Shown: in pieces, positions 1-35,863 of the stretch
How the letters are laid out: each line of letters begins with the position of its first letter
How positions within the stretch are numbered: position 1 is the first letter of the stretch
Source of the DNA: Clostridia bacterium
GTDB lineage: Bacteria > Bacillota > Clostridia > Christensenellales > Aristaeellaceae
Direction of reading: 5' to 3'
Assembly (NCBI GenBank): GCA_017397765.1
Contig: JAFQIB010000115.1
Location: 1-37,494 of the forward strand
DNA length: 37,494 nt
Translations under genes and position numbers: made by a program
The notes under the pieces: model-generated
What the model was told of the DNA's origin: nothing
The model's input: the letters and a program-made list of their open reading frames with translations, nothing else
The model's database searches: none

Positions 1-144
1 AGGCGCTCGCGCCGACTAGCGAGAGCAAATGCTTGCATTTGCCGAGCATAGCCAGCACCGGGCTTGTCCCGGTGATGGCCGAGTGACCAGTGAGTGAGTG
101 CAAAACCTCGACAAAGTGCCTATAGCACTTTGTCGATACGCTGA
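1..144 (+). repeat. Family A intergenic element, copy 1 (left part outside window)
   Basis: This stretch matches almost base for base the right half of the copy at 1670-2009. It contains the palindrome CGACAAAGTGC / GCACTTTGTCG around a 5-base loop and ends in GATACGCTGA, directly against an intrinsic terminator hairpin, as the other two copies do. No coding potential is apparent; the open frames through it have no ribosome binding site. The left end lies outside the window. Confidence 0.85.
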
Positions 145-169
145 GCGCCGGGTATGTCCCGGCGCTTTT
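144..169 (+). terminator. Intrinsic terminator abutting family A copy 1
   Basis: The stem AGCGCCGGG / CCCGGCGCT has nine perfect pairs and a TATGT loop, followed by TTTT. It would end a plus-strand transcript from outside the window. It begins exactly where the family A element ends, the same arrangement as at 2009 and 4445. Confidence 0.8.
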
Positions 170-1646: not shown

Positions 1647-1668
1647 AAAAAAACCGGAGCACGTTCGG
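1647..1668 (-). terminator. Left hairpin flanking family A copy 2 (minus-strand terminator)
   Basis: The hairpin CCGGA-GCACG-TTCGG is preceded on the plus strand by seven A residues, so on the minus strand it reads as a hairpin followed by a T-run. It could terminate the ylmC-like transcript coming from 2319. It is a diverged duplicate (about 17 of 20 positions) of the hairpin at 2009-2027 on the other side of the repeat. Confidence 0.6.
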
Positions 1669-1669
1669 A

Positions 1670-2009
1670 TTCAGACCATCAACAAACCCTGGGAGGTGTC
1701 GGAGGGCTCGCAAGCCCTCCGACTCTACATCGAAAATCGGCGAGCCCCTTCGGGGCGGTTAAACGGGGCGAAGCCCCTGCGCGGCGATTTTCGTGCTTTT
1801 CCGTTAAGAAAAGCTTCCTTACACGAACGAACGGCCGGGAGAACGACTTGTCGTTGCACGAGGGAGGCGCTTGCGCCGACTAGCGAGAGCAAATGCTTGC
1901 ATTTGCCGAGCATAGCCAGCGCCGGGCTTGTCCTGGTGATGGCCGAGTGACCAGTGAGTGAGTGCAAAACCTCGACAAAGTGCCTAAAGCACTTTGTCGA
2001 TACGCTGAA
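1670..2009 (+). repeat. Family A intergenic element, copy 2 (complete, about 340 bp)
   Basis: This non-coding element is bounded by imperfect terminal inverted repeats: left TTCAGACCATCAACAAA, and right, read inward, TTCAGCGTATCGACAAA. Inside are the hairpins GGAGGGCT/AGCCCTCC and a long-range pairing of GAAAATCG with CGATTTTC that encloses a GC-rich sub-hairpin absent from copy 3. A roughly 100-base module shared with copy 1 (about 1862-1950) follows, then the palindrome CGACAAAGTGC/GCACTTTGTCG. It lies between convergent genes and between two copies of the same terminator hairpin. No transposase is encoded, so a MITE-like, trans-mobilised element is inferred. Confidence 0.85.
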
Positions 2010-2031
2010 TCCGGAGCACCTCCGGATTTTT
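2009..2031 (+). terminator. Terminator for the tyrA/DUF523 transcript
   Basis: A perfect 8-bp stem, ATCCGGAG / CTCCGGAT, with loop CAC runs straight into TTTTT. It is the right-hand partner of the duplicated hairpin pair around family A copy 2. Confidence 0.8.
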
Positions 2032-4124: not shown

Positions 4125-4525
4125 TTCACGTCTCACCATATCAGAAGGTGCAATGATACGTATCGTTCCGGTGCACCGCATTTGTACACGTTCATAAGCA
4201 AACGAGCATCCAAACACACCGGATGCTCGTTTCAGACCATCAACAAACCTTGGGAGGTGTCGGAGGGCTCGCAAGCACTCCGACTCTACATCGAAAATCG
4301 GCGACATGCGCGGCGATTTTCGCGCTTTTCCGTCAGGAAAAGCTTCCTTACACGAACGAACGGCCGGGAGAACGACTTGTCGTTCGACCAGTGAGAGAGT
4401 GCAAAACCTCGACAAAGTGCCTAAAGCACTTTGTCGATACGCTGAAACGAGCATCCAAACACACCGGATGCTCGTTTGTTTGTTACTGGAGAAATTGTTC
4501 CTTAAGAATCTTCCCGCCGGAGCGT
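4125..4525 (+). repeat. Family B terminator-bearing repeat, copy 1, interrupted by family A
   Basis: The segments 4125-4232 and 4478-4525 together align with the uninterrupted sequence at 16471-16620, including the shared TAAATTGTTCCTTAAGAAT-like stretch after the hairpin (here GAAATTGTTCCTTAAGAAT). The core is the hairpin CGAGCATCC / GGATGCTCG followed by T-rich sequence. The 33-base hairpin block at 4200-4232 is repeated exactly at 4445-4477, with the family A element between. Confidence 0.8.
4231..4446 (+). repeat. Family A intergenic element, copy 3 (short form, 216 bp)
   Basis: It has the same terminal inverted repeats as copy 2: TTCAGACCATCAACAAA on the left and CGATACGCTGAA on the right. 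It lacks the GC-rich sub-hairpin and the roughly 100-base module present in copy 2. It is inserted in a family B repeat between identical 33-base copies of that repeat's hairpin. Its ends overlap the flanking duplicates by one or two bases, so the exact boundary is uncertain. Confidence 0.85.
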
Positions 4526-31851: not shown

Positions 31852-31877
31852 AGCCTTGTATCTGACAACAGAACAGG

Positions 31878-32047
31878 GATCAGAGGCGCGCAGTGCCGGT
31901 ACTGCGGCGGAGGACAGGCTTCCGCTGAGGCCGCGGGAAGGAGCATTGCGCCGAAAGACAGAAGGGGGAGCCGCCGCTTCTGTGCTTGGAGGCAGGCCGC
32001 ACGGGTCTGCATCTGTCATCGGGCTTTTGCCTGGCGGAGCGCTGGTC
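31878..32047 (+). ncRNA. Lysine riboswitch (L-box)
   Basis: The aptamer begins GATCAGAGGCGCGC and closes with GGAGCGCTGGTC, so that GATCAG and CTGGTC pair as P1. Conserved lysine-riboswitch blocks occur in order: AGAGGCGCG, a GGAGGACAGG-like arm, GGGAAGGAG, GCGCCGAAAGAC, a GC-rich arm, GCTTGGAGGCAGGC, CATCTGTCATCGGG and GGAGCGCT. It lies between a consensus promoter and a terminator just upstream of asd, as expected for lysine-repressed transcription attenuation of the diaminopimelate/lysine branch. Confidence 0.93.
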
Positions 32048-32093
32048 ACGGGGGAGTAGGGATGCTGTATGCATCCGCTCTACCCTTTTGCGC

Positions 32094-35706: not shown

Positions 35707-35831
35707 GGCAGAGTAGCTGCTGGCGCGTCAAGTGCTTGTGAACGGGGAGTTGTCACAAGACGAAAGGGGGACTTTGTCCGGTTTTTCCGACAGTGGACGG
35801 AAAGAGCCGGCAGATTCCTTCCTGCGGTGCC
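35707..35831 (+). ncRNA. Tetrahydrofolate riboswitch
   Basis: It shows the conserved THF-aptamer core: GAGTAG, then GCGTCAAGTGCTTGTGAACG, then GTTGTCACAAGACGAAAGG, in which TTGTGA and TCACAA pair. The arms CTGCTGG / CCGGCAG form the next helix, and GGCA / TGCC close the outer one. One internal arm is extended (GTCCG...CGGAC-like, 35777-35800) compared with short examples. Its position before folT matches the usual target of this riboswitch class. Confidence 0.9.
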
Positions 35832-35863
35832 AGCGGCGCATCCCGCTGCTTCGGTGCAAACTG

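Follow-up and report, generated by a model that had tools for sequence, protein, structure and literature searches.

Non-coding elements and paired hairpins in the window

The window analysed here, a 37,494-nt stretch of a Clostridia bacterium genome (contig JAFQIB010000115.1), carries three copies of a repeated element, in forms of 212 and 336 bp that are non-coding and too short to contain a transposase gene. These elements are short, lack genes, occur in many copies and are bounded by a target site duplication, as is characteristic of MITEs. The copies and their flanking hairpins are arranged as follows.

1..143, plus strand: right part of MITE copy 1, truncated at the start of the contig; 97% identity to copy 2
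144..166, no strand: right target hairpin copy of copy 1; left partner on contig C85, 21 of 23 bases equal to the flank at C85:8951
1651..1671, no strand: left target hairpin copy of copy 2, decayed; 3 mismatches in 21 against the right copy
1672..2007, plus strand: MITE copy 2 (336 bp, CAG...CTG); 98% identity to the copy at C47:2390 and 97% to that at C102:48275
1672..1686, plus strand: left terminal inverted repeat of copy 2, CAGACCATCAACAAA
1993..2007, minus strand: right terminal inverted repeat of copy 2, CAGCGTATCGACAAA read inwards
2008..2028, no strand: right target hairpin copy of copy 2, followed by a T-run; folds end to end, -12.0 kcal/mol
4200..4232, no strand: left 33-bp target hairpin copy of copy 3, identical to 4445-4477
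4233..4444, plus strand: MITE copy 3 (212-bp form)
4445..4477, no strand: right 33-bp target hairpin copy of copy 3, identical to 4200-4232

Copy 2 spans 336 bp (1672-2007), opens with CAGACCATCAACAAA and closes with the inverse of CAGCGTATCGACAAA. Its left flank, AAACCGGAGCACGTTCGGATT (1651-1671), differs from its right flank, AATCCGGAGCACCTCCGGATT (2008-2028), at 3 of 21 positions and folds weakly (-5.0 kcal/mol versus -12.0 kcal/mol on the right; z only -1.6). The two 33-bp hairpins beside copy 3 are identical and paired end to end. A first-pass annotation of this DNA had claimed that a hairpin is duplicated on both sides of copies 2 and 3, and this holds for both. The same annotation gave the constant ends as TTCAG...CTGAA; the ends are indeed alike across sites, but the outer TT and AA belong to the duplicated hairpin, so that the element proper runs from CAG to CTG. 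Its description of the hairpin next to copy 1 as unrelated was mistaken: the window begins inside this element, at the contig end, and the hairpin at 144-166 is the right member of the element's own pair, since the flank of the corresponding left end on C85 is the same hairpin with 2 of 23 bases mismatched.

Two further features of the window and its elements were observed. A ~70-bp internal module of the 336-bp MITE (window 1876-1946; query 207-277) recurs alone in relatives, and in one of them (G003:C56:20890-21520) forms an array with ~93-bp spacing; possibly it is an independent repeat family that the MITE has acquired. Elsewhere in the window lie a lysine riboswitch (31873-32052, plus strand; Rfam RF00168) and a THF riboswitch (35707-35850, plus strand; RF01831).

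Copies, hairpin duplications and a transposase in the same genome

When the genome was searched with the copy 2 sequence, at least 48 matches were obtained (40 of 172 first-look candidates were scored), eight of which were short second pieces or palindrome echoes. A loose end motif matched 93 times, versus once for the same pattern read backwards. From the 60 stretches taken, ends were paired at a spacing of 45-2200 bp, giving 50 pairs, 37 of which had a flanking direct repeat above threshold; one of these, a span across both elements of contig C12, was dropped, leaving 36. The remaining 13 pairs were judged to be seven elements and six chance pairings of the loose motif, which sets the denominator at 43. 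A duplicated hairpin, differing from site to site, therefore flanks 36 of 43 two-ended elements in this genome, including one insertion sequence (IS) and one cargo element. The number of copies, dozens, is far greater than the three first described, and the expectation that genomic copies would lie between duplicated hairpins was borne out for most of those with two ends.

The duplications are 17-38 bp long and all 36 fold as hairpins, with stems of 5-14 bp, the left copy beside window copy 2 being the weakest; the weakest cases counted are one on C108, with a score at threshold, and window copy 2 itself. When left flanks were compared with the right flanks of other elements, only 2 of 1806 cross-pairs scored above threshold, both within the C12 tandem site. 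Since true pairs did so in 36 of 43 cases, chance matching of flanks cannot account for the set. A broader comparison, of 65 left-type with 58 right-type flanks, gave matches in 43 of 3770 combinations; 16 of these join different contigs, for the most part at copies that a contig end has interrupted, and one of them pairs window copy 1 with C85. At the C12 site (L095), two different adjacent elements are accompanied by three copies of one hairpin, which indicates that a duplicated hairpin can serve as a target again.

The genome yielded one transposase gene of the IS1182 family, which scores 415 bits where 270 is the cut-off, has DDE domains and exceeds the curated cut-offs of the family (NCBIfam NF033551, Pfam DDE_Tnp_1_6). 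Absent from the window elements, it is present in an IS on contig C117 that measures 1495 bp between its end motifs, has the ends CAGCCTGTCAAAAAAGG and CAGCTTGTCAAAGAAG, and sits inside an exactly duplicated 25-bp hairpin. The left end of this IS is one base off one MITE subfamily (CAGACTGTCAAAAAAGG) over 17 bases, while the subfamily of the window (CAGACCATCAACAAACC) is further away. The first-pass annotation had foreseen a longer autonomous version with a recombinase or reverse transcriptase, and what was found is a DDE transposase of the IS1182 family. Its suggestion that copies without a transposase are mobilised in trans holds up by inference: the elements are probably moved in trans by an IS1182-family enzyme. 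As the assembly is ~89% complete, the helper may be another gene than the C117 transposase.

A 1717-bp element on contig C38 (L093:4039-5756, G000:C38) has similar ends and lies within an exact 27-bp hairpin duplication. It contains genes that resemble a methyltransferase and a GNAT acetyltransferase, whereas no transposase open reading frame was seen within its 1717 bp; it is a cargo-bearing non-autonomous element.

Relatives, empty sites and exceptions

A collection of species genomes was scanned with the C117 transposase, which yielded 186 relatives; the best 80 loci were kept, 68 of which have at least 60 bp on each side. Among these best 80 of 186, a direct repeat of at least 15 bp across the element was present at 42 of the 68 loci with both flanks. 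Where both ends of the element could be recognised, the same set of best 80 showed duplication in 42 of 55 relatives, with lengths of 17-64 bp and nearly always of a hairpin. In a control of 400 mismatched flank pairs the 99th percentile of the score was 13 and the maximum 24. The complete genome of Chakrabartyella piscis contains ten loci with IS copies that are 96-100% identical, and all ten have a duplicated flanking sequence; this sequence differs at each site save for two that lie in one duplicated segment, leaving nine independent sites. Because this genome is complete, misassembly is not the general cause of the repeats. On plasmids, hairpin duplication was found at four of eight loci (L295, L298, L300, L301). 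As for the others, L294 is cut by the start of the record, the 16-bp repeat at L297 is part of a hairpin, L296 has by eye different hairpins on its two sides, and the duplication search returned nothing at L299. The IS with duplications come from two phyla, Bacillota and, through one plasmid, Fusobacteriota.

Within the genus, all 18 of 18 genomes match the element somewhere, many only to its internal part. Two-ended copies number five; a duplicated hairpin scored above threshold in three (L233, L250, L259), and L236 and L237 have similar but diverged hairpins. No ends were recognised around the IS1182 gene of G005. Taken together, these data confirm that duplication of the hairpin is real and general. 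They also uphold the earlier claim that a whole terminator hairpin is duplicated and that the target is chosen by its structure (36 of 43 elements in the genome itself, 42 of 55 relatives with both ends).

Sites without the element were examined for a relative on the Enterococcus faecium DO plasmid (NC_017962), where the left flank plus hairpin and the right flank plus hairpin were searched separately. The left flank occurs in 125 records, 60 of them among the matches listed, and only those that also have the right flank were used. The right flank occurs in ten records: the filled plasmid, eight with both flanks and one that could not be judged. In all eight plasmids with both flanks the two flank matches overlap by 24-26 bp, which corresponds to a single hairpin with no IS, where NC_017962 reads hairpin-IS-hairpin. 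At the copy 2 site, six relatives in the genus retain both neighbouring genes and lack the element. By eye, the orthologous gap holds a clear single terminator hairpin in G002 and weaker possible hairpins in G005 and G012; in G003, G011 and G016 there is almost no gap between the genes, and no hairpin. The orthologues of the copy 3 site have no recognisable common upstream context. The first-pass annotation had asked for a comparison with empty loci; sites with one hairpin and no element were recovered directly for the Enterococcus relative, and for copy 2 at species level only.

A matching hairpin pair is missing from 7 of 43 elements in the genome itself and from 13 of 55 relatives. A second, non-duplicating mode of insertion was considered for the 13 relatives and rejected: many of them have different hairpins on their two sides. 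Eight (L170, L172, L176, L178, L181, L188, L194, L195) have unlike hairpins on each side, each at -9.9 kcal/mol or below, in a comparison whose control is lenient, 36 of 104 shuffled flanks reaching -8 kcal/mol. L197 is a ninth such case, its 47-nt left hairpin having exceeded the limit of the script. L206 resembles, by eye, a diverged duplicate, L193 ends at a contig edge, and at L190 and L217 just one of the two sides shows a convincing hairpin.

In the finished genome AP018533, both L197 hairpins recur once each, with one mismatch each and ~2.8 kb apart, where they flank another, interrupted IS copy in swapped order. The swapped pairs (L306, L307) lie near 0.11 and 3.45 Mb of the 3.56-Mb record and in the same orientation. 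Exchange between two IS copies would leave swapped hairpin pairs of this kind; because the copies share their orientation, one simple inversion is insufficient and further rearrangement must be assumed. Among the other exceptions, those in draft genomes may reflect misjoined contigs.

As for the seven exceptions in the genome itself, the pair at C60 has diverged, the two hairpins of C101 are similar, one of them being identical to a C83 flank, and C16 is cut by the contig end on its right, with a left flank that matches C96. C50 (L106:292-348) and C149 (L129:339-401) are palindromic mini-elements of 56 and 62 bp, each made of two like ends and lying between different hairpins. No convincing hairpin was present on the right of C76 and C136.

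Target geometry, mechanism and relation to known systems

A stem of at least 7 bp that leaves no more than three bases of the duplication outside it was present in 71 of 78 duplications, versus 501 of 3000 random 27-mers of the window. Pairing stops at the edge of the duplication in 38 of 78; in 40 of 78, between one and six further contiguous pairs are possible outside it, so the last pair does not always mark the cut. This contiguous-stem measure was used in place of a fold in which the empty site was joined up together with outer flanks of 15 nt; there, hairpin and duplication ends agreed poorly and outer bases paired too (length correlation 0.74 for the relatives and 0.16 for sites in the genome itself). 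A run of four A or T adjoins the hairpin at 26 of 36 sites in the genome itself and at 32 of 42 sites in relatives, against a background of 4.7% at random places of the window, which suits the former set only; such runs are what intrinsic terminators would show. The relatives' duplications start with A in 23 of 42 cases and end with T in 28 of 42, and no common sequence was seen among the 42 beyond this tendency.

These results support the earlier interpretation of hairpin duplication, structural targeting and, by inference, mobilisation in trans. The reading we prefer, to which we assign a probability of roughly 0.8, is that the elements are non-autonomous, MITE-type members of the IS1182 group, moved by a DDE transposase in trans, which insert into hairpins and duplicate them at hairpin length by gap repair. 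An IS1182-family DDE transposase of the same cell or lineage would act on the CAG...CTG ends and direct insertion into hairpin-forming sequences, mostly intrinsic terminators. The element ends would be joined to the two strands, one at each of the opposite feet of the fold, and repair of the gaps would copy the intervening hairpin, so that duplication and hairpin would be of roughly equal length (17-64 bp). The target would be folded at the time of insertion, as a cruciform or a single-strand hairpin, with strand transfer at the 5' feet; such sites may be nearly neutral, since the genes on both sides would retain a terminator each.

Of the alternatives, the one that retains some weight, although we regard it as rather unlikely, is that the hairpin is recognised as a fold in single-stranded DNA, for example at a replication fork, rather than as a cruciform of supercoiled duplex DNA. 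The product would look alike in both cases; on the other side, DDE enzymes with inverted-repeat ends are usually thought to act on duplex targets. We consider it improbable that a long staggered cut is made in unfolded DNA, with palindromes preferred through symmetric binding by a dimeric transposase. Palindromes would suit such binding, but the lengths range over 17-64 bp, the ends of the duplication mostly coincide with those of the stem (71 of 78, at most three bases outside), and apart from the frequent initial A (23 of 42) and final T (28 of 42) no sequence common to the targets was seen.

More improbable still is replacement of the target stem-loop, as with IS1272, the flanking hairpins then being of other origin. 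IS1272 and TnSha1 of staphylococci belong to the IS1182 family and have hairpin targets, several of them confirmed terminators, with no sequence consensus (PMC4923244), so that transposase family and kind of target agree (PMC5678879, PMC4923244). IS1272, however, removes the stem-loop wholly or partly and produces no target duplication (PMC5678879, PMC4923244), whereas here two full copies remain (36 of 43 and 42 of 55) and the empty sites of the Enterococcus relative have one; IS1272 itself may differ. The idea that the hairpins belong to the element, or that the element and both hairpins move as a unit, agrees with the presence of a hairpin on each side of most elements, yet is scarcely tenable: the hairpin varies by site while the ends are alike, IS copies 96-100% identical sit in different hairpins, and the one-hairpin empty sites refute it outright for the Enterococcus relative. 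Least credible of all is an RNA-based element that targets terminators in the manner of group IIC introns, which insert at terminator hairpins but are RNA retroelements without terminal inverted repeats; the elements here have such repeats, the full-length relatives seen encode a DDE transposase, with no version carrying a reverse transcriptase seen among them, and a scan of the elements against Rfam at the gathering threshold gave no match and no group II intron RNA.

Palindromic targets are ascribed to some members of the IS1182 family (Siguier et al., as cited in PMC5678879 and PMC4923244), the direct repeats are put at 2-60 bp (ISfinder figures quoted in PMC7335449), and members act with or without target duplication, by recognition of sequence or structure (PMC12056078). 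The window elements resemble the family in their palindromic targets and long, variable repeats, and differ from its IS in carrying no transposase. Non-autonomous MITEs of 160 and 169 bp are described for ISMac2, an IS1182-family element of Methanosarcina acetivorans, with direct repeats that are apparently 4 and 0 bp, the column order being judged from other rows of the table; the relevant parts of that paper contain no hairpin duplication (PMC3852290). Duplication of a whole stem-loop is drawn, in the relevant part of PMC5678879, only as a possible, hypothetical 'pathway b', and the products seen here fit strand transfer to opposite feet followed by repair, as sketched there. The IS1182 family, its use of palindromic targets and the occurrence of long direct repeats in it are known already (PMC5678879, PMC4923244, PMC7335449). 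What is apparently new is the identity of the duplication with the hairpin, seen in MITEs, in a cargo element and in IS of two phyla; no report of whole-hairpin duplication by IS1182 elements was found in the literature searched, which was mainly open-access and without ISfinder or TnPedia.

The paired hairpins have a practical use as labels, by which contigs that break at repeats can be connected and exchanges between IS copies recognised. With most DDE transposases the duplication has a roughly fixed length that is typical of the enzyme; here its length varies with the size of the folded target. This could account for the wide range of direct repeats given for IS1182 (2-60 bp), and contrasts with the deletion mode of IS1272. 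We lean, by a small degree, towards the wider view that this branch of the IS1182 family reads DNA shape, such that the folded target and not the enzyme would set the length of the duplication, doubled terminators would provide safe landing sites, and MITEs and cargo elements alike would be driven in this way. If this is true, hairpin extrusion in living cells would be readable from genome sequence.
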